Source: Kribbella sindirgiensis
GTDB lineage: Bacteria; Actinomycetota; Actinomycetes; Propionibacteriales; Kribbellaceae
Reading direction: 5' to 3'
Assembly (NCBI RefSeq): GCF_004331435.1
Contig: NZ_SJKA01000001.1
Location: 682,001-746,000, forward strand
Length of the DNA stretch: 64,000 bases
The translations under genes and the position numbers were made by a program. The stretch's first letter is position 1. Every line of letters begins with the position of its first letter. A model generated the notes under the pieces. That model did not search any database. It was not told where the DNA came from and was given only the letters and a program-made list of their open reading frames with translations. This document shows, one piece after another, positions 46,894 to 56,239 of this stretch.

Positions 46894-47228
46894 CCGCTGG
46901 ATGCTACCGGTCTGGAGAGTGAGATGGCGTCCGCGAGGCATGGACAACGCGTGCTGGAATGAGTACGGTCCGTAAACGGCGTCCGCACCACGCCGACCTC
47001 GACGGTGAGGTGCTGCCCGCCAGTAGCGCCTCGCTGGTGTGTGGGCAGAGCGGGCTGCGGCTGTGCGCTTCGGCCTGATGGGGGCCCATTCACCCAGGTG
47101 GGGTGGTGAACGGCACTCACTCGTTCACCGCCCCACCGGTTCAACTCTTCACCTGCAGTTTGTTAGGTGGCCCGGCAACCGGGGCAGACTGACCTGCGTC
47201 CGGTCCCCAACCGCCCCTGGGAGTAGCC
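46894..47228. other. 335-nt divergent intergenic region, hairpin at 47097-47137
   Basis: No convincing gene lies between cysS (-) and the endonuclease gene (+). Its main structure is a hairpin with arms GGTGGGGTGGTGAACG (47097-47112) and complement (47122-47137), matching at 15 of 16 positions plus a wobble. A 39-codon frame (46959-47078) is present but has no good ribosome site. The hairpin lies 92 nt before the endonuclease start and could regulate it. Confidence 0.5.
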
Positions 47229-48347
47229 GTGTCCCGACTCTTCCGTCCGGCGCTGCTCGTCACCGCCGTTCTCGCACTGCTCGGCTTCGGCATTACGCCG
47301 TCGAACGCCGCCACCTCGATCACGGTCGCCACGGCGATCGGCCGCCAAGACGGTTCGACCGCATCCGTCACCGGGTACGTCGTCGGCCAGCCGACCGCGA
47401 CCACCACGGTTGTCCGCAGCAACTTCCCGAACGACTACGCGCTGGCACTCGCCGACTCGGCGTCCCAGACCAGTACGTCGGCGATGCTCTACGTGCAGAT
47501 CCCGACCGCGTTCCGCGCGTCGTACGGACTGCAGAGCAACCCGAGCCTGCTCGGCAAGCAGATCACTGTCACCGGCACGCTGACGGCGTACTTCTCGCAC
47601 CCCGGCCTGAAGAACGCGACCGCCTTCACCGGCGGCGGCGGCACGGACCCGGGGCCGGATCCGGGTGACTACTACGCCGGCGCCGAGGGCAAGACCGGCG
47701 CGGCGCTGAAGTCCGCGCTGCACACGATCATCTCGAGCCAGACCAAGCTCAGCTACGACCAGGTCTGGGACGCGCTGAAGGTCACCGACCAGGACCCGAG
47801 CAACAGCAGCAACGTCATCGAGATCTACTCCGGCCGCTCGATCAGCAAGACCCTCAACGGCGGCGACGCCGACGACTGGAACCGTGAACACGTCTGGGCG
47901 AAATCGCACGGCGACTTCGGCACCGCGACCGGCCCGGGCACCGACATCCACCACCTCCGCCCCGAGGACGTGACGGTGAACTCGGCCCGCGGCAACCTCG
48001 ACTTCGACAACGGCGGTACGGCGGTCGCCCAGTGCTCCGGCTGTACGGCGGACTCGGACTCGTTCGCGCCCCGGGCAGCGGTCCGCGGTGACGTGGCCCG
48101 GATGATCTTCTACATGGCCGTGCGCTACGAGGGCGACGACGGGTTCGCGAACCTCGAGCTGAACAACTCGGTCGGCAACGGCACCGCGCCGTACATCGGC
48201 AAGCTCACGGTGCTGAAGGCCTGGGCCGCGGCCGACCCGCCGGACGCGTTCGAGAAGAACCGCAACGAGGTCATCTACAGCCAGTTCCAGCACAACCGGA
48301 ACCCGTTCATCGACCACCCGGAGTGGATCGCGTCGATCTGGCCGTAA
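47229..48347 (+). CDS. Secreted endonuclease I (EndA/NucM-type) with N-terminal OB-like domain
   Basis: A 372-aa exported nuclease. The signal peptide covers residues 1-27 (ends NAA). An OB-fold-like domain of DUF6359/YhcR type follows (residues ~30-135, ATAIGRQDGSTASVTGYVVG). A Gly/Pro linker (GGGGTDPGPDPGD) leads to the endonuclease I domain, with DWNREHVWAKSHG (catalytic His), DIHHLRPEDVTVN and GNLDFDN metal-binding parts. It degrades extracellular DNA for nutrients or phosphate. The start is GTG 47229. Confidence 0.92.
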   Translation: MSRLFRPALLVTAVLALLGFGITPSNAATSITVATAIGRQDGSTASVTGYVVGQPTATTTVVRSNFPNDYALALADSASQTSTSAMLYVQIPTAFRASYGLQSNPSLLGKQITVTGTLTAYFSHPGLKNATAFTGGGGTDPGPDPGDYYAGAEGKTGAALKSALHTIISSQTKLSYDQVWDALKVTDQDPSNSSNVIEIYSGRSISKTLNGGDADDWNREHVWAKSHGDFGTATGPGTDIHHLRPEDVTVNSARGNLDFDNGGTAVAQCSGCTADSDSFAPRAAVRGDVARMIFYMAVRYEGDDGFANLELNNSVGNGTAPYIGKLTVLKAWAAADPPDAFEKNRNEVIYSQFQHNRNPFIDHPEWIASIWP

Positions 48348-48362: not shown

Positions 48363-50969
48363 TCAGCGGTTCTGCTGCACGTCCTGTTTGGCGCCGAGGG
48401 CGGGCCGGTGTTCTCCGGCCCGCCCTCCGGTCGTCGTGAGCTGCGCGTGCGGCCTGGCCGGTGCGGCGATGCCGGACAGTGCGGTGGCTGTGCCGAGCCG
48501 GGTCTGTACCCAGTCCTGGAAGCCTGGGTCGGTGACGTGGATCCGGAAGTCGGTCCGGGTCAGCAGGCCACGGGAGATCAGTGCCTTGGACGCGTCGTCG
48601 AGGTCCCAGCGATCCGGGCCCGCGGTCCGGGTCGGGATGGGCACCCCATGGGAACCGTGCGCCGCGGTTTTCGCGAGCAACGCCATCTCGTGGTTCGAGC
48701 AGTTTCTCCAGGCAGCGGCGTACAGCGACTGGGACCGGGTGTTCAGCCGGGAGGCCGCGGTCGCGGCGACCTCGGCGGTGATGGTGTTCTCGCCGGGCGG
48801 AACGAGCTCGAGGGCCGCGCCGGCGAGCATCCGCAACCTGCTCGGGTGACCTTGGGCGTCCTCCATCAGCTTGTCCACAGCACCCGGCTCGCACTGGTAA
48901 CCGGCCTTGGCCAGCGGCGTGACGAGTGCCTTGCGCATCTCGGCGGCGTTCATCGGCACCAGTGCGCGGACGTCGAGCTTCAGCTCGGTCTCCGTCCCGG
49001 AGGCGCCACCTGAGGCCGACAGCAGCCGGGACTCCATCTGGTTGCCGCCCGCCGCGATCAGGAACGCCGGTTTCCGGTTCTCGTGCAGGGTGGCCGACAG
49101 CCCGACCAGGGCGACCAGGTCGTCGCGCGACGCGCCGTCGCGCGACGCGGCGTCCAGGTTGTCGACCATCAGCACGATCGGCTCGCGCCGCGGCCCGGCC
49201 ATCTTGCCGAGCTGCTCGCCGAGCTCACTCAAGGTCCGGCCGACCGAGTCCTTCGTGACGCCTTCCCAGGCCGTGTGGACGCCGATCTTCGGTCCGGGCG
49301 CGAGGCCGGCCCGGATCTGCGCGGTGTTCATCGAGTTCTTGGTCCGGACCGCCATCCGGTTCAGGATCTCTTTCAGTTCCTTGACCTGGTCGGCCGGGTA
49401 CCGCCGCTTGAAGGTGTCCATCTCGTCCTGGACGGCGCGAATGATCCTGGCCTCCACCGACTCGCGTCGGGAGGCGCTGAACCGGATCGTGATCCAGCCC
49501 TCCTGGTCGGCCAGCGCCTTGGCCCGGTTCAGCTCCTGGCTGGTGCCGATGCCGGGAGGTCCGGTGAACAACACCGTGGTGCCGATCGGGAGTCGCTGGT
49601 CCAGTGAGATCGGCCGGCCGTCCTTGTCCTTGCGGTCGATCGGCTCGACGAGCTGATCGGACGTGCCGAACACCTTGGTGACCGCGGCCCGGTCCCCCGC
49701 AAGGTGGACCGGTGCCAGGTTGGCGGCCGGCCGGCCGACTTCCGGCCCGTGGGGCGGTGCCGGTGTCTGGTCGAGGTGCTGGTTGAGCCAGTCCCGGAAT
49801 CCCTTGTCGGGGATCGTCACGAGTTGGCCGTCGTGCTCCCGGAGCATTCCGCGGGCGACCAGCTCCTGGCGCGCCTTGTCGACCTGCTGCCACTGGTCCG
49901 ACTGGTCCGTACGGGTCTCGGCCGGCATGTACAGGCCGTTCGTCCCCTGCGCCGCGACCTTGGCGAGCAGATCCTTCTGGGCGTGGGTGGTCTCCGGCTG
50001 GTCCCACCTGCTCTGGTAGCTGTGTTCCGAGTCCCTCCAGACCCTGGCTGTCGCGGCTTCCGCAGCCGCCGCCGTGATCCCGCGCTCCGGGTCCCGCATC
50101 GCGACAGCGGCCAGCGCGAACTTCCGCAACTGGCTCGGGTTGCCGTTGGCGGCGCGGACCAGGACGTCGATCCCGGCGTACTCGTACGGGATCTGCTCGT
50201 CGTCGAGCGGCTCGGTCAGGGACACGGCCAGGTCCTCGTCGGACAGCGGCTCGAGCTCGCGGACACTGAACTGGTTGGTGATCGTGGTGGCGATACCGGA
50301 CATCCGCCGGGACGCGTGCATCAGCGAACTCGTCGACTTGGTGCCGCCGGCGATGACCAGCCAGACCGGGCGATCCATTTCCTCGAGATGGATCGCGAGG
50401 TCGTTCACGCCCGCCTGGTCGTGCTCCGACGCCGCGTCGATCTTGTCGATCAGCAGCAGGATCGGCTCGTTCTCGTGGCCGGCGATCCGGCCGAGCTCGT
50501 CGGCGAAATCGTTCAGCGTGGTGCCGAGCTTGTCGTGTGCGGTGGTGTCCTTCTCGTGCTTACCGACGAACTCGACCGGGACCGGGCCGCCCCCGAGCCG
50601 CGCTTCCCAGCCCCACCGGGTGTTGCGGCCGCTCGCGGTCAGGTCGCGGACCGTCTTGCTGAGGTCGCGGACCTGGCGCTTGCCGAACCTGTCCCGCAGG
50701 TCGTCGAGCTTCTGCCGGAACGCGGTGGTCAGGTGGTGCTCGAGCGGGATGTTCTCGGACGCGGTCACCCGGATCGTGGTCCAGCCGTGGACCTCGGCCA
50801 GATCTTCCACCCGGTTGAGTTCGGTGGTCTTGCCCATACCGGGCGCGCCCTGGAAGAGGATCGCCTTGCTCTCCGGAAGTACGCCGCTCAACGAGAGCGG
50901 TGCACCGAGCTGGTCCCTGCGCGTGATCAGGTACGCCGGGTGCCCGTCTGCTCCGAAGACCTGGCTCAT
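48363..50969 (-). CDS. Large tandem-duplicated STAND-like NTPase, unknown function
   Basis: An 868-aa soluble protein built of two homologous modules of about 430 residues. Module 1 has Walker A GAPGMGKT (41-48) and Walker B ILLLID (Asp175). Module 2 has GPPGIGTS (470-477), where the Walker A Lys is replaced, and VLMVD (Asp603). After each NTPase domain a helical region and a winged-helix end follow: GFRDWLNQHL (~390-399) and GFQDWVQTRL near the end. Modules share ELNRA/V, HGWTTIRVTA/GWITIRFSA, and GGT/GGN sensor segments. There are no membrane or signal segments. STAND-type ATPases act as switches in signalling or defence; the exact role is unknown. Encoded alone, convergent on the endonuclease gene. 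Confidence 0.8.
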   Translation of the reverse strand: MSQVFGADGHPAYLITRRDQLGAPLSLSGVLPESKAILFQGAPGMGKTTELNRVEDLAEVHGWTTIRVTASENIPLEHHLTTAFRQKLDDLRDRFGKRQVRDLSKTVRDLTASGRNTRWGWEARLGGGPVPVEFVGKHEKDTTAHDKLGTTLNDFADELGRIAGHENEPILLLIDKIDAASEHDQAGVNDLAIHLEEMDRPVWLVIAGGTKSTSSLMHASRRMSGIATTITNQFSVRELEPLSDEDLAVSLTEPLDDEQIPYEYAGIDVLVRAANGNPSQLRKFALAAVAMRDPERGITAAAAEAATARVWRDSEHSYQSRWDQPETTHAQKDLLAKVAAQGTNGLYMPAETRTDQSDQWQQVDKARQELVARGMLREHDGQLVTIPDKGFRDWLNQHLDQTPAPPHGPEVGRPAANLAPVHLAGDRAAVTKVFGTSDQLVEPIDRKDKDGRPISLDQRLPIGTTVLFTGPPGIGTSQELNRAKALADQEGWITIRFSASRRESVEARIIRAVQDEMDTFKRRYPADQVKELKEILNRMAVRTKNSMNTAQIRAGLAPGPKIGVHTAWEGVTKDSVGRTLSELGEQLGKMAGPRREPIVLMVDNLDAASRDGASRDDLVALVGLSATLHENRKPAFLIAAGGNQMESRLLSASGGASGTETELKLDVRALVPMNAAEMRKALVTPLAKAGYQCEPGAVDKLMEDAQGHPSRLRMLAGAALELVPPGENTITAEVAATAASRLNTRSQSLYAAAWRNCSNHEMALLAKTAAHGSHGVPIPTRTAGPDRWDLDDASKALISRGLLTRTDFRIHVTDPGFQDWVQTRLGTATALSGIAAPARPHAQLTTTGGRAGEHRPALGAKQDVQQNR

Positions 50970-51150
50970 GGGGACAGCGTGCGGACCGTAGCCGTCGCCG
51001 ACACGGTCGGTGAGTTACTTACCGGTTAACAGTCGGCTCCCGGAAGTTGAACCACGGGCTCGTGGCAACCGGTCTACACACCGCGACCCGATCGCGCATA
51101 CCTGGGCCGAAATGCTTGGAAGCGGCCTGTACCGCTGTCACCCTCAGTGC

Positions 51151-52188
51151 ATGAGAATCGGACGAGTGCTCGCGGCGCTACTCGCCGTACCCCTGGCCGG
51201 CCTGCTGCCGGTCGGTTCTGCGCAGGCCGACCCGGATCCGGACCTGACGATCTCTCAGGTCGTCCTGGACCGCACCTCGGTCGCGGTCTCCGGGCTGAAC
51301 ACCTACCCGATCAACGTCACCGTCAAGGGCGGCTACTCCGGCGAGGACACCAGCGTCGTGCTGAACGTCGTCCTGAAGCGCACCGGCGGCACCGGACCGC
51401 GCGACAGCATCGTGTCCGCCGATCTCAAGCTGACCGCCGGGACGGTCCAGAACGGTACCTGGACCGGCCGGCTCAACGTCGCGTCCACCGCGAACGGCAC
51501 GTTCAAGGTGACCGGCGTGATGACCGGTCCGTACGGCGCTCCGGACCCGGGGACCCCGGTCGACCCGACGCCGTACTCGGGCCAGACGATCACGGTGAAG
51601 GGCACGAACCTGCCGAAGATCACCGCCTCGGTGAATCCGAAGGTGGTGCCGTGGGACAAGCCGTACTCGATCACCTGGGCGGTCACGAACACCGCGACCG
51701 GCAAGCCGTACGGCACCCAGATCCCGATCGGGCTCGGTGTCGACACGCCGTGCGCCGAGGGCGGCAGCCCGATGTACAAGACCGGGACGAACGGCCTGAT
51801 CACCAAGTCGTACACCGCGTACGACGGCGGCGCGATGAACTGCGCGCACATCTACGCCGACCCGTACTACATCGTCGGCCAGTGGCTGTTCGTCGCGCAC
51901 CCGGCGATCGTGTCGGCGGTCCCGTCGAAGACCAGTGCGCCGGTCGGGACCGTTGTCCCGGTCAACGGTTCGGTCTACCGCGTGGGTAGTTGCTCTGTGC
52001 ATCTGCAGCGGCTGTACGGCGCCTCGCAGTGGCGGACCGTCAGTTCGGCATCGGTGCGGCAGTCCGGGCGGTTCACGGTCAACGCGCAACCGTCGTACCA
52101 GGGCCTGATTCCGTACCGGGTCTACTTCCCGACCTGCTACAACATCGCCGCGGGCGTCAGCAAGACGTTCTACATCCGAGGAACCTGA
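51151..52188 (+). CDS. Secreted beta-sandwich protein, family copy 1
   Basis: A 345-aa exported protein with a signal peptide (residues 1-25, ending SAQA). Three regions recur in all four copies of this window's family. An N-terminal Ig-like part has VAVSGLNTYPINVTVKG. A middle block reads PKITASVNPKVVPWDKPYSI and is followed by TWAVTNTATGKPYG. The C-terminal block has APVGTVVPVNGSV, HLQRLYGASQWRTVSSASV and GRFTVNAQPSYQGLIPYRVY, then YIRGT. Cys pairs are conserved. The last block resembles the beta-sandwich repeats common at the ends of actinobacterial secreted proteins. Function unknown. Stop overlaps the next start (TGATG). Confidence 0.85.
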   Translation: MRIGRVLAALLAVPLAGLLPVGSAQADPDPDLTISQVVLDRTSVAVSGLNTYPINVTVKGGYSGEDTSVVLNVVLKRTGGTGPRDSIVSADLKLTAGTVQNGTWTGRLNVASTANGTFKVTGVMTGPYGAPDPGTPVDPTPYSGQTITVKGTNLPKITASVNPKVVPWDKPYSITWAVTNTATGKPYGTQIPIGLGVDTPCAEGGSPMYKTGTNGLITKSYTAYDGGAMNCAHIYADPYYIVGQWLFVAHPAIVSAVPSKTSAPVGTVVPVNGSVYRVGSCSVHLQRLYGASQWRTVSSASVRQSGRFTVNAQPSYQGLIPYRVYFPTCYNIAAGVSKTFYIRGT

Positions 52189-53237
52189 TGAAGCGAAACC
52201 GAGTTCTCGCTGCGCTGCTCGCGGCACCGCTGCTGCTGGCCCTCTTCCCGGCCGCGGCCCAGGCCGCCCCTGATCCCGACCTCAAGATCGACTCGATCAC
52301 GCTGAACAAGACCAGCGTCGCCGTCAGCGGGCTCAACACCGCGCCGGTCACGGTGACGGTCAAGGGCGTCTTCGACACCGGCTCGTCGACCGACGAGAAG
52401 GTCCCGGTGAACGTGCTCCTCGAACGGACCGGCGGCACCGGCCGGCAGCGGGTCCTCTGGTCCACGAACCTGGTTCGCAACACGGCGGCCGGCACCTGGA
52501 CCGGACCGCTGAACGTCCCGTCGACGGCGAACGGCACGTTCAAGGTGACCGGCGTGATGACCGGCCCGTTCTTCCCGGGCAGCGGGAGCATGACGGACCC
52601 GACGCCGTACTCCGGCCCGTCGCTCGCGGTCACCGGGACGCATCAGCCGAAGATCACCGCGTCGGTGTCCCCGAAGGTGGTGCCGTTCGGCTCCGGGTTC
52701 AAGATCACCTGGGCGGTGACCGACGCGCAGACCGGCAAGCCGTACGGCAGCAAGGTCCGCGTCGTCCTCGGCACCGACAACATCTGCGCCGAGAACTTCG
52801 GTCCCGGCTACACGCACCTGACCAGCACCAGCGGCGTGGTCACCAAGTCCTACGCGGCGTCGGACGCCGAATGGGTCAACTGCCTCATCCTGCCCGGAAA
52901 CCCGGCGTCGATCGACGGTCAGGGACTCGTCGTCGCGCGGCCCGGCATCGTGACCGCGACACCGTCGAAGACCAGCGCACCGGTCGGCACGATCGTGCCG
53001 GTGAACGGCGTCGTCGCAGGAGCACCGTCCGCGTGCAAGGTGTACCTGCAGCGGCTGTACGGCGCCACGCAGTGGAAGACGGTCAGCCCCGCGGGCAACA
53101 TCCGGTCGTACAGCGGAAAGTTCACGCTCAACGCGCAGCCGGCGTACAAGGGTCTGATCCCGTACCGCGTCTACTTCCCGAAGTGCTACAACTACCAGGC
53201 CGGCGTCAGCAAGGCCTTCTACATCAAGGGGACCTGA
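52188..53237 (+). CDS. Secreted beta-sandwich protein, family copy 2
   Basis: A 349-aa paralogue of the preceding gene with a signal peptide (LFPAAAQAA). Shared blocks: VAVSGLNTAPVTVTVKGVF, VPSTANGTFKVTGVMTGPFF, PKITASVSPKVVPFGSGFKI and VYLQRLYGATQWKTVSP. It differs mainly in the middle loop (residues ~125-140, GSGSMTDPTPY) and around NICAENFGP. It starts 1 nt before the upstream stop ends, and the third copy begins 3 nt after its own stop, so copies 1-3 form one transcription unit. Confidence 0.85.
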   Translation: MKRNRVLAALLAAPLLLALFPAAAQAAPDPDLKIDSITLNKTSVAVSGLNTAPVTVTVKGVFDTGSSTDEKVPVNVLLERTGGTGRQRVLWSTNLVRNTAAGTWTGPLNVPSTANGTFKVTGVMTGPFFPGSGSMTDPTPYSGPSLAVTGTHQPKITASVSPKVVPFGSGFKITWAVTDAQTGKPYGSKVRVVLGTDNICAENFGPGYTHLTSTSGVVTKSYAASDAEWVNCLILPGNPASIDGQGLVVARPGIVTATPSKTSAPVGTIVPVNGVVAGAPSACKVYLQRLYGATQWKTVSPAGNIRSYSGKFTLNAQPAYKGLIPYRVYFPKCYNYQAGVSKAFYIKGT

Positions 53238-53240
53238 CCC

Positions 53241-54260
53241 ATGCGACGCGTGCTGGCCGCCCTGCTCGCGACACCTCTGATGGCCTCACCGCTGGTCGCG
53301 CAGGCCGCGCCGGATCCTGATCTGCACATCGAGTCCGTGACCTTGAACAAGACCAGCGTCGCCGTCAGCGGACTGAACACGGCCCCGATCATGGTGACGG
53401 TCAAGGGAAAGTACGACGCCAACGCGAACACCCCGGTGAACGTGATCCTCGAACGTACCGGCGGCTCCGGCCAACTGTCGCAGATGCTGTCCACCAATCT
53501 GGTGCGCAACGAGGCGGCGGGCACCTGGAGCGGACCGCTGAACGTCCCGTCGACGGCGAACGGCACATTCAAGGTCATCGGGCTGGTCACGGGGCCTTTC
53601 TTCCCGCCCAGCCCGCCGATCTACGACGTGACGCCGTACGCCGGCCCGTCCATCGCGGTGACCGGGACGCACCAACCCAAGATCACCGCCGTGGTCACGC
53701 CGAAGGTCGTGCCGTTCAACCAGCCGTACTCGATCAAGTGGGCAGTCAGCGACGCGCAGACCGGCAAGCCCTACGGCACCCGGGTCCGGGTGTTCCTCGG
53801 CACGAACAGCAGTTGCGTCGAGTACTTCGGTCCGCGCTCCACGAACCTGACCGACACCAACGGCGTCGTGACGAAGGCGTACCCAGGTGTGTCGATGGCA
53901 CCCATCACCTGCCTGCTGCTCCCGGGCACTCCGGACGCGATCGGGTGGCTCTCGTTCGTCCCGGCCCGTCCGGGCATCGTGTCCGCGGCTCCGTCGAAGC
54001 CCAGCGCACCGGTCGGCACGCTCGTTCCGGTCAACGGGTCGGTCCAGGGCCCGCCCTACAGCTGCCCGGTGCACCTCCAGCGGCTGTACGGCGCCACTCA
54101 ATGGCGGACCGTCAACTCCGCGACGGTGCGGCAGTCCGGCCGGTTCACGGTCAACGCGCAACCGGCGTACAAGGGGACCATCCCGTACCGGGTCTCCTTC
54201 CCCAGGTGCCGCAACTACCAGGCCGGCGTCAGCAAGGTGCTCTACGTCCGCGGGACCTGA
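53241..54260 (+). CDS. Secreted beta-sandwich protein, family copy 3
   Basis: A 339-aa paralogue with a signal peptide (residues 1-23, ending VAQA). The N-terminal block VAVSGLNTAPIMVTVKGKYD, middle PKITAVVTPKVVPFNQPYSI and C-terminal VHLQRLYGATQWRTVNSATV are close to copies 1 and 2. The Cys pattern is retained (SSCVEYFGP, PITCLLLPG, SCPVHLQ, PRCRNYQ). It is the last gene of the tandem set; the downstream gap holds an iron box for the next gene. Confidence 0.85.
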   Translation: MRRVLAALLATPLMASPLVAQAAPDPDLHIESVTLNKTSVAVSGLNTAPIMVTVKGKYDANANTPVNVILERTGGSGQLSQMLSTNLVRNEAAGTWSGPLNVPSTANGTFKVIGLVTGPFFPPSPPIYDVTPYAGPSIAVTGTHQPKITAVVTPKVVPFNQPYSIKWAVSDAQTGKPYGTRVRVFLGTNSSCVEYFGPRSTNLTDTNGVVTKAYPGVSMAPITCLLLPGTPDAIGWLSFVPARPGIVSAAPSKPSAPVGTLVPVNGSVQGPPYSCPVHLQRLYGATQWRTVNSATVRQSGRFTVNAQPAYKGTIPYRVSFPRCRNYQAGVSKVLYVRGT

Positions 54261-54276
54261 GCCTTGGGGCGGGTGG

Positions 54277-54302
54277 GTTAGGCTTACTTAGGTTCACCTA
54301 AC
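54277..54302. promoter_or_regulatory. DtxR/IdeR-type iron box
   Basis: TTAGGTTCACCTAA (54288-54301) has perfect 6-nt arms; an outer pair GTTAGG (54277-54282) and CCTAAC (54297-54302) extends the pattern. This matches iron boxes bound by IdeR/DmdR in actinobacteria (TTAGG...CCTAA). It lies 28 nt before the siderophore-interacting protein start, so the gene should be repressed by iron. Confidence 0.8.
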
Positions 54303-54329
54303 TTACCCGCCCGAGAGGACCGTGGTCGC

Positions 54330-55151
54330 GTGACCAGCCCCGCACCCCGCCGTAATCGCGTCTGCAAGCGCGCCGTCGTCCTGAGGACCGAGCGGATCAC
54401 CCCGCACATGATCCGGGTCGTGCTCAGCTCCGACGACTTCGCCGACAACGGCTTCACCGACCATTACGTGAAGCTGCTGTTCTGCAAGGACGGCGTCGAG
54501 TACCCGGAGCCGCTGGACATGGGCGTGGTGCGGGAGACGTACCCGGCCGAGCACTGGCCGACCATGCGGACCTACACCGTCCGCAGTTGGGACGAGGCGA
54601 CGCGGGAGCTGACCATCGACTTCGTCCACCACGGTGACGAGGGCGTCGCGGGTCCGTGGGCGGCGTCCGCGCAACCGGGTGACGTGCTGTGGTTCAACGG
54701 CCCCGGCGGTGCGTACTCGCCGGACGAGGCGGCCGACTGGCACCTGCTCGTGGGTGACGAGAGCGCACTGCCGGCCATCGGCGCCGCGGTCGAGCAGTTG
54801 CCGCCGGGTGCGCGCGCGACGGTTCTGGTCGAGGTGGCGGACGAGACCGAGGAGCAGAAGTTCGGCGGCTCGGGCGAGACCGACGTACGGTGGTTCCACC
54901 GCGCGACCGCTGACGGCGAGCGCGGTGACGGACTGGTCGCGGCCGTCGAGGCCCTCGACTTCCCGGACGGTACGCCGCACGTGTTCGTGCACGGCGAGGC
55001 CGGATTCGTCTTCCGGATCCGCAAGAACCTGTTCCAGGACCGTGGACTCGGCCGGGACCGCGTTTCGTTGTCCGGCTACTGGCGGCTCGGCAAGAACGAG
55101 GACGGCTGGCAGGCGGAGAAGGCTGAGACCGCCCGCCAGCAGTCTTCCTAG
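54330..55151 (+). CDS. Siderophore-interacting protein (FAD-dependent ferric reductase)
   Basis: A 273-aa flavoprotein of the SIP/ViuB family that reduces ferric siderophores in the cytoplasm to release iron. The FAD-binding beta-barrel covers residues ~1-125 (RTYTVRSWDEATRELTIDFVHH, with RxYTxR). The NAD(P)H domain has LLVGDESALPAIGAAVEQLP and VFVHGEAGFVFRIRKNL. The C-terminus reads SGYWRLGKNEDGWQAEK, a family signature. GTG 54330 is preceded by GAGAGGACC. The iron box immediately upstream supports iron control. Its stop overlaps the convergent copy-4 gene by 4 nt. Confidence 0.93.
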   Translation: MTSPAPRRNRVCKRAVVLRTERITPHMIRVVLSSDDFADNGFTDHYVKLLFCKDGVEYPEPLDMGVVRETYPAEHWPTMRTYTVRSWDEATRELTIDFVHHGDEGVAGPWAASAQPGDVLWFNGPGGAYSPDEAADWHLLVGDESALPAIGAAVEQLPPGARATVLVEVADETEEQKFGGSGETDVRWFHRATADGERGDGLVAAVEALDFPDGTPHVFVHGEAGFVFRIRKNLFQDRGLGRDRVSLSGYWRLGKNEDGWQAEKAETARQQSS

Positions 55152-56200
55152 AGCCCTCGGATGTAGAACACCCGGCTGACACCGGCCAGGTAGCGGTTGC
55201 ACTTCGGGAAGTAGACGCGGTACGGGATCAGACCCTTGTACGCCGGTTGCGCGGACACCGTGAAGCGTCCGCTCTGGCGCGTCTTCGCGGTGCTGACACC
55301 GCGCCACTGCGAGGCGCCGTACAGCCGCTGGAGGACGACCGGGCAGAAGGCCGCCGGGCCGAGCACGCTGCCGTTGACCGGCACGATCGTGCCGACGGGC
55401 GCGCTCGTCTTCGACGGCACGGCCGACACGACGCCGGGCCGGATGACGGCGAGACCGAGACCGGTGATGTCGAGCGGGGTGCTCTTGATCCGCAGGCAGT
55501 TGATCGACTCGCCGGCACTGGACGGGTACGAGTAGGAGATCAGGCCGCCGGTCGTCGTCAGCACGTTGATCCCGCCGGCTTCCTCGGCGCACTGGTTGTC
55601 GACGCCGAGCATGGCCCGGAGGCGGGTGCCGTACGGCTTGCCGGTCGTGCGGTCGGTGATCGCCCAGGTGATCGTGTAGTTCGGGCCGAACGGCACCACC
55701 GGCGGCGTCACCTTGGCGGTGATCTTCGGCTGGTGCGTGCCGGTGATGGTCAGCGTCGGACCGTCGACCGGGGTCGGGTCAGGCAGCATCCCGCCCGCCT
55801 GCCAGGTGAAGAACGGGCCGTACGAGACGCCGTACACCTTGTAGGTCCCGTTCGCTGTCGACGGGATGTACACCGGGCCGGACCAGACGCCGTTCTGCAC
55901 CGTGCCCGAGGTTCGTGGCAGATCTGTCGACAGGAGCTCGGTCATCGGGCCGGTCCCGCTGATCCGCTTGATGTAGACGAGCAGGACCAGATTCTCGTCG
56001 TCCGGGCTCGTCGTGTTGTATTTCGCGGCGACGGTCAACTTCACCGGGACGGTGTTCAGCCCGGATACCGCGATCGTCGTTCGGTCAGCTGTCACGCTCG
56101 TGACCGTCAATTTTGGGTCCACCGCAGCTTCAGCTGCTGTGATCCCAGTCCCCACCACTGCCGACGCCAGAAGCGCCGCAACCACTCTGTGCCCCCACAT
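55148..56200 (-). CDS. Secreted beta-sandwich protein, family copy 4 (opposite strand)
   Basis: A 350-aa paralogue of the three-gene set, on the other strand and separated from it by the iron-regulated SIP gene. Signal peptide ends AEAA. Shared blocks: IAVSGLNTVPVKLTVAAKYN, PKITAKVTPPVVPFGPNYTI, ITDRTTGKPYGTRL and VVLQRLYGASQWRGVSTAKT, ending FYIRGL. It is the most divergent copy (fewer identities in the N-terminal third). Start ATG at 56198-56200. Confidence 0.85.
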   Translation of the reverse strand: MWGHRVVAALLASAVVGTGITAAEAAVDPKLTVTSVTADRTTIAVSGLNTVPVKLTVAAKYNTTSPDDENLVLLVYIKRISGTGPMTELLSTDLPRTSGTVQNGVWSGPVYIPSTANGTYKVYGVSYGPFFTWQAGGMLPDPTPVDGPTLTITGTHQPKITAKVTPPVVPFGPNYTITWAITDRTTGKPYGTRLRAMLGVDNQCAEEAGGINVLTTTGGLISYSYPSSAGESINCLRIKSTPLDITGLGLAVIRPGVVSAVPSKTSAPVGTIVPVNGSVLGPAAFCPVVLQRLYGASQWRGVSTAKTRQSGRFTVSAQPAYKGLIPYRVYFPKCNRYLAGVSRVFYIRGL

Positions 56201-56239
56201 ATCAGCAGAGTGACACCCGGCGACGTACCTGCCTAGACC

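Follow-up and report, generated by a model that had tools for sequence, protein, structure and literature searches.

Within a 64,000-nucleotide (nt) stretch of the Kribbella sindirgiensis genome (contig NZ_SJKA01000001.1, positions 682,001 to 746,000), referred to below as the window, we analyzed four related genes, A to D, that surround a gene for a siderophore-interacting flavin adenine dinucleotide (FAD) reductase, SIP. We find that A to D encode a real, well-defined, uncharacterized family of secreted immunoglobulin (Ig)-domain proteins and that this family shows lineage-specific tandem expansion. The genes of the locus are the following.

51151..52188, + strand: family gene A, 345 amino acids (aa), signal peptide, three predicted Ig-like domains
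52188..53237, + strand: family gene B, 349 aa; 1-nt overlap (TGATG) between its start and the stop of A
53241..54260, + strand: family gene C, 339 aa, 3-nt gap after B; its product was used for the structure model
55148..56200, - strand: family gene D, 350 aa, inverted, beyond SIP, with a 4-nt 3'-end overlap with SIP
54330..55151, + strand: SIP, the siderophore-interacting FAD reductase gene, a neighbor that occurs with or without the family
48363..50969, - strand: double AAA/nSTAND-type ATPase gene, divergent, forming the border of the locus

These coordinates confirm the layout given in a preliminary description of the window, namely, a four-copy family, with three tandem genes touching within 1 to 3 nt and a fourth inverted past SIP; all four open reading frames are full length and homologous. 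The packing of A, B, and C resembles that of an operon, and tight packing is found across the genus, where 38 of 45 same-strand neighbor pairs of family genes are spaced by -4 to +3 nt. The end of C and the start of SIP are 69 nt apart, and the neighbor gene is a member of the SIP family by its Pfam matches (SIP, 9.4e-35; FAD_binding_9, 6e-36).

Identity to A is 60% for protein B, 58% for C, and 56% for D. A search of the genome with the family profile recovered all four at E values no higher than 7.4e-186, along with one weak match covering a single domain; the similarity is far above chance. Full-length members in this genome are limited to A to D. In a survey of 38 Kribbella genomes, 35 had some match and 25 had full-length members, 84 genes in all. 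The blocks named in the preliminary description are kept in all four proteins of the window: PKITA, TGKPYG, and LQRLYGA do not vary, and VAVSGLNT differs only at its first residue, which is Ile in D. Among 30 aligned members, LQRLYGA also occurs as LQRLSGA (n = 2), LQRLYGR (n = 3), and LQRLYGS (n = 1). The cysteines described as conserved are four, kept as two pairs (gene C numbering): C192/C224 in the second domain (D2; see below) of 82 of the 84 members and C275/C323 in the third domain (D3) of 83, the lone exception having neither D3 residue. The pairs are consistent with two intradomain disulfides, one in D2 and one in D3. The exceptional member, from genome G030 (L070 7396-8457), has only two cysteines.

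Secretion, too, was supported: read by eye, the N terminus of each of A to D is a typical export signal, with basic residues, a hydrophobic run, and an AxA motif, leaving a mature part of ~33.5 kDa. There is no lipobox cysteine, all four cysteines of each protein lying within D2 and D3, and by eye no membrane or wall anchor was seen, each C terminus closing with an FYIRGT-like strand that is followed by neither a hydrophobic tail nor a sorting motif. No described family was found for A to D in Pfam, NCBIfam, or PDB sequence searches. None of the four window proteins scored above a curated Pfam cutoff, Big models included; the 30 aligned members gave no Pfam match better than an E value of 0.05; and no NCBIfam model fits the family. 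The Pfam, NCBIfam, and PDB sequence searches gave no credible match to a catalytic domain or motif, and the Pfam and PDB sequence searches returned no inhibitor family. A weak PDB sequence match to Ika4 (E = 0.0011, 53 residues) is probably due to chance. Literature searches on Kribbella in the open-licence text of PubMed Central listed no paper whose title pointed to the family.

A model of protein C, built from a 30-row alignment (mean predicted local distance difference test score, 87.5; predicted template modeling score, 0.77; residues 1 to 22 below 50 on the former), consists of three Ig-like domains in the order D1-D2-D3, in keeping with the beta-sandwich fold that had been proposed. Structures were matched by Foldseek and VIA-align, and the matches were mostly Ig-like modules (the FdeC adhesin, with an E value of 1.1e-8, intimin D0, PirB, and macroglobulin domains), in a listing that does not exclude families outside it. 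Residues 244 to 339 superpose on residues 1055 to 1156 of PorU (Z = 9.3; root mean square deviation [rmsd], 2.5; 92 residues), and residues 145 to 339 superpose on PirB (Z = 10.3; rmsd, 10.4 across two domains). Because the Z values of the best chains, 8 to 10, lie near the 7 to 8 that is typical of models without a clear match, we limit the claim to the domain fold, which is predicted to be an Ig-like beta-sandwich. Profile comparison found D1, D2, and D3 mutually unrelated; they are therefore three different domains.

The proteins are basic, and their charge is unevenly distributed. With mature proteins cut uniformly after residue 28, the isoelectric point (pI) is above 8.5 in all 84 (lowest, 8.79; median, 9.67) and the net charge lies between +4 and +19 (median, +13); two secreted proteins of the window that served as controls are acidic (endonuclease, pI 5.1; OpuAC protein, pI 6.0). 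Over 85 rows, in which one gene is represented twice, the net charge is -8 to +3 for D1 (median, -1), -2 to +6 for D2 (median, +2), and +8 to +13 for D3 (median, +11). At ten positions of D3, no fewer than 80% of the 84 members have Lys or Arg, and no acidic position is conserved. Mean identity is 0.49 in D1, 0.45 in D2, and 0.63 in D3; gene conversion as the cause of the D3 similarity was rejected, since the synonymous divergence of D3 resembles that of D1 and D2.

The number of copies directly before SIP ranges from 1 to 14 (14 in G001, 9 in G004, and 6 in G020), with a single copy in 7 of 25 loci. A D-type copy lies past SIP in six genomes, and six isolated copies lie elsewhere in five genomes (two in G001 and one each in G004, G013, G020, and G021). 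The remaining 10 matching genomes have partial matches only, mostly in frames of ~950 to 1170 aa; a frame of this sort in G000 (L080) encodes a secreted subtilase. Two reduced forms were seen along the way: K. pratensis VKM Ac-2574 has a reduced array, with one intact B-type gene and, after it, a start-less C-terminal fragment of another copy (L057 7346-8014, the same as L012 8959-9627), and a decayed isolated copy (L075 7296-7713, G035:C19) consists of two short pieces, one match having an internal stop.

Outside the genus, 293 genomes of the order were searched with at most seven candidates scored per genome and 394 genomes of the class with at most five, so that relatives may be missed. In the order, among the matches listed, full-length members were all in Kribbella, and matches in other genera were partial, mostly to D3. 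In the class, a 30-sequence profile matched 11 genomes at 1e-9, including that of K. sindirgiensis; the loci read for five of the others contain three-domain proteins distantly related to the family (G450, G307, G367, and G336) and, in G385, a relative whose frame is broken. The family, with distant relatives in a few other actinobacteria, is not strictly confined to Kribbella; its large expansion was seen there only. Collections of plasmids and phages gave no family match, and carriage by either was rejected.

In all 25 genomes with an array, the array lies 60 to 118 nt before SIP. The divergent ATPase gene lies upstream of it in most genomes; G004 and G027 have no close homologue. Of the 13 Kribbella genomes lacking full-length members, 8 have the ATPase gene directly adjoining SIP and the other 5 have no close ATPase homologue. 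Coevolution with the ATPase as a requirement was rejected on both counts, as G004 and G027 bear the family and the eight genomes have the ATPase but no family. On a tree of SIP, in which only 9 of 35 inner branches are well supported, family presence needs 4 changes, compared with a mean of 11 after shuffling and with none of 500 shuffles as low; these few changes indicate that the family was inherited in blocks. At the ATPase site, other species have shorter forms, with open frames of ~450 to 530 aa. An endonuclease I family protein with DUF6359 is encoded at 47193-48347 on the + strand and is close to the locus in 22 of the 34 stretches compared. The nearest named relatives are K. soli and Kribbella sp. 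VKM Ac-2569, in which the best-matching segment of protein A reaches 92% identity. Codon usage of the family genes is not clearly different from that of their neighbors, and high expression, which might have been deduced from it, was rejected.

The family tree (85 rows, one gene entering twice from two overlapping stretches) contains orthologue groups A (12 rows), C (6 rows), and D (6 rows), each with support of 100/100, and a group B with a five-row core at 100/98 and, when two further rows are included, 81/48. These supported groups indicate that the slots are old and stable. In codon models run with our own scripts, the gene-wide ratio of nonsynonymous to synonymous rates (dN/dS, or omega) was 0.091 for A (12 sequences), 0.103 for B (7), 0.126 for C (6), and 0.091 for D (6), and that of the SIP control was 0.055 (13 sequences). 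The positive-selection model M2a gave no gain over M1a (likelihood ratio test [LRT], 0.00) in any of the four groups. With the synonymous rate fixed at its gene-wide value, omega was 0.110 to 0.140 in loops and 0.055 to 0.094 in strands; the signal peptide was the loosest region in A, B, and C (0.19 to 0.29). Between species, selection is purifying in every region tested. On branches between paralogues, omega was 0.23, versus 0.10 within groups (LRT, 36; approximate, as branch lengths were only scaled). The paralogues thus diverged faster after duplication, still well below an omega of 1.

Five upstream elements were located in the window.

54288..54301, + strand: IdeR/DtxR-type box TTAGGTTCACCTAA of SIP, an exact match to the consensus
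51071..51077, + strand: GGTCTAC element, 80 nt before the start of A
51136..51141, + strand: TGTCAC element, 15 nt before the start of A, with no Shine-Dalgarno-like match
56233..56239, - strand: GGTCTAG element, 39 nt before the start of D
56210..56215, - strand: TGTCAC element, 15 nt before the start of D

Family genes that start a unit often have no Shine-Dalgarno-like match. GGTCTA(G/C) is present at -38/-39 or at -79 to -81 in 27 of the 45 such genes (one more has it at -98, where the start is doubtful) but occurs anywhere within 100 nt of only 2 of the 39 abutting genes; these counts include orthologues and hence are not independent. The element also precedes members that are not orthologous, including D-type genes, first genes, array-internal leaders, and isolated copies. 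Its density over all fetched loci is ~0.012 per 100 nt per strand, and GGTCTAG occurs once in the window, at D, against 3.8 expected. TG(T/C)CAC lies at -15 or -16 in 14 first genes and in 6 of 6 D-type genes. A fixed distance between the GGTCTA element and gene starts suggests, as far as leader sequences go, that members of the family are regulated in common. Reading the element genome-wide as part of a -35/-10 promoter was unsupported: the pattern finds D alone in the genome, and reversed-pattern controls find 3 and 5.

We tentatively favor, at a little short of an even chance, a reading in which A to D are paralogous secreted noncatalytic binding or structural proteins whose basic D3 docks on anionic surfaces and whose D1-D2 give slot-specific contacts. 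Once exported, the proteins would dock through D3 on anionic polymers, most likely the wall glycopolymers of the cell itself or else another extracellular polyanion; it is from the polarized charge, with D3 basic, that we infer such binding. D1-D2 would present a slot-specific contact surface to a partner or to neighboring subunits. The paralogues would have specialized soon after duplication and then been held constant, and would therefore form a fixed set of different parts, not a variable antigen repertoire. Several observations weigh against this reading. The family is dispensable, since 13 of 38 Kribbella genomes have no full-length member. Among the distant three-domain relatives, four of six proteins are slightly acidic (pI 6.3 to 6.6; the other two, 10.5 to 10.8), and polyanion docking therefore cannot characterize the wider family as a whole. 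Among the fold matches are some that represent portions of glycosidases (e.g., 9bey and 5t99). Finally, a D3-like domain also terminates a secreted subtilase, so that D3 may simply serve folding or stability as a generic module.

It is less probable, though deserving of some weight, that the proteins are subunits of one extracellular assembly, such as a sheath, a fibre, or a surface coat, with A, B, and C cotranslated and coassembling and D2-D3 as a common scaffold. Tight gene packing, the stable slots, the basic D3 common to members, and an Ig-chain architecture like that of adhesins and a surface-layer protein would all fit; the single-copy loci mean that a heteromer cannot be general. More speculative, and in our judgment rather improbable, is a genus-expanded surface kit, in which basic three-Ig-domain paralogues in fixed slots, up to 14 per array, would assemble into or coat a layer on the anionic Kribbella wall under a dedicated GGTCTA-type element.

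The invariable position of SIP beside the array could speak for a role in iron uptake, whereby the secreted proteins would bind ferric siderophores or heme and SIP would reduce these inside the cell. We regard this as highly unlikely. The 14-bp IdeR consensus, TTAGGNNNNCCTAA as given in PMC8464063, has its exact copy at 54288-54301 as the only match in the window within one mismatch (0.08 expected). By this consensus, an exact box lies within 120 nt before SIP in 34 of the 38 loci (23 of the 25 that have the family and 11 of the 13 that lack it), but within 200 nt upstream of none of the 84 family genes, and where the family is missing, SIP can directly adjoin the ATPase gene (8 of 13 genomes). 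Judged by where it stands, the box belongs to SIP, and the link of the family to iron is one of position; iron control of the family was rejected accordingly. The preliminary description had placed the family around an iron-regulated reductase: a SIP gene with an exact IdeR-type box is indeed present, but the family genes lack the box.

That the proteins are extracellular inhibitors or immunity-like decoys, for instance, against proteases or the toxins of competitors, with several specificities per genome, appears no more probable. The small size of these secreted proteins, their two predicted disulfides, their slot-specific D1-D2, a patchy distribution, and the endonuclease I gene near the locus would suit such a role, but no inhibitor family emerged from the Pfam and PDB sequence searches and no target-like gene lies directly beside the array.

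The preliminary description took variable loops in tandem copies as a sign of diversifying surface or secreted binding proteins, that is, of loops varied by positive selection for specificity. The idea can draw on the greater difference of D1 and D2 than of D3 between paralogues, on arrays of up to 14 copies, and on loops that are 1.5- to 2-fold looser than strands; the loops do vary, but under purifying selection. Crude NG86 estimates, which ignore the extreme codon bias (third-position A+T, ~8%), exceed a dN/dS of 1 in 2 of 18 paralogue-by-domain comparisons within the window, both in D2 (A-D, 0.48/0.25; B-D, 0.43/0.40). Against it stand the low omegas of 0.09 to 0.13, the lack of any gain from M2a, the stable orthologous slots, and the likelihood omega of 0.23 between paralogues. 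Even the highest 15-codon window reaches only 0.55 in D (in its D2) and 0.28 to 0.30 in A, B, and C. Candidate conversion tracts (>90% identity to a same-genome paralogue and above any orthologue) were found in just 2 of the 25 genes with a grouped paralogue that were scanned, namely, B of the window and C of G033. Uniform purifying selection over all regions had been named beforehand as one outcome that would refute diversification; purifying selection is what was found, with the loops looser than the strands. Between species, the diversifying reading is largely refuted, and we give it very little credence.

Equally little can be said for membership in an N-acetylglucosamine/chitin regulon under a DasR-type regulator, which would make these chitin- or fungal-wall-binding proteins: GGTCTAG, found with its C variant mostly at unit-starting genes, is the core of the 16-bp DasR box (dre), A(G/C)TGGTCTAGACCA(G/C)T in PMC4398421, but measured against that box the family sites match at 9 to 12 of 16 positions, of which the search itself had set six, with the right half not kept; TGGTCTAGACCA has 31 matches in the window at up to three mismatches (17 expected), none of them at either leader site, the exact full box in that form is absent from the genome, and a fixed distance to the start equally fits a promoter element.

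The analysis adds a secreted family from a soil actinobacterium that has no Pfam or NCBIfam model and whose copy number at a single conserved site of the chromosome varies from 0 to 14. It also shows clearly that "variable loops" among tandem paralogues need not signal diversifying selection. Should the basic D3 serve to dock on the wall, as in the reading we favor, the retention of actinobacterial proteins that have no anchor would be accounted for.

Among known systems, SIP belongs to an established family, is not part of the A-to-D family, and is kept at the locus independently. The distant relatives in G450, G307, G367, and G336, and the broken one in G385, resemble A to D in their signal peptide, in the order D1-D2-D3, and in near-full-length profile matches (best, 7.9e-52); they differ in that one or two genes were found, with other neighbors, and in the slightly acidic pI of four of the six proteins. 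D3 has relatives of other architecture. By sequence, D3 is homologous to the C-terminal Ig-like domain of a subtilase secreted in Kribbella (G000:C9, L080 3666-6548, - strand; Peptidase_S8 and Big_5; E = 1.6e-10) and to a domain of short secreted proteins from other genera of the order (L081 and L082; E = 1.1e-11 and 2.7e-11). In these, D3 is fused to a protease or trailed by another domain, whereas A to D are stand-alone D1-D2-D3 proteins. Frames of subtilase-like length with partial matches recur in other Kribbella genomes. A genome from another family of the order, G259 (L081 1963-4673, - strand), has three tandem genes for secreted proteins of 268 to 296 aa with a D3-like domain and then a different C-terminal domain; two were matched, and the third is alike by eye.

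The closest likeness in kind is to bacterial Ig-like secreted and adhesin proteins (FdeC, intimin D0, and Big-type proteins), with which A to D share an exported chain of Ig-like beta-sandwiches. FdeC is the best Foldseek match (E = 1.1e-8; template modeling score, 0.31), at 12% sequence identity. A to D differ from these proteins in fitting no Pfam Big model and in having no visible anchor, and whole-chain superposition is loose (rmsd, 17 to 19); the resemblance is therefore one of domain fold only. As exported Ig-like modules, the parts are ordinary in kind; the points of interest are the stable slots, the polarized charge, and the shared upstream element.

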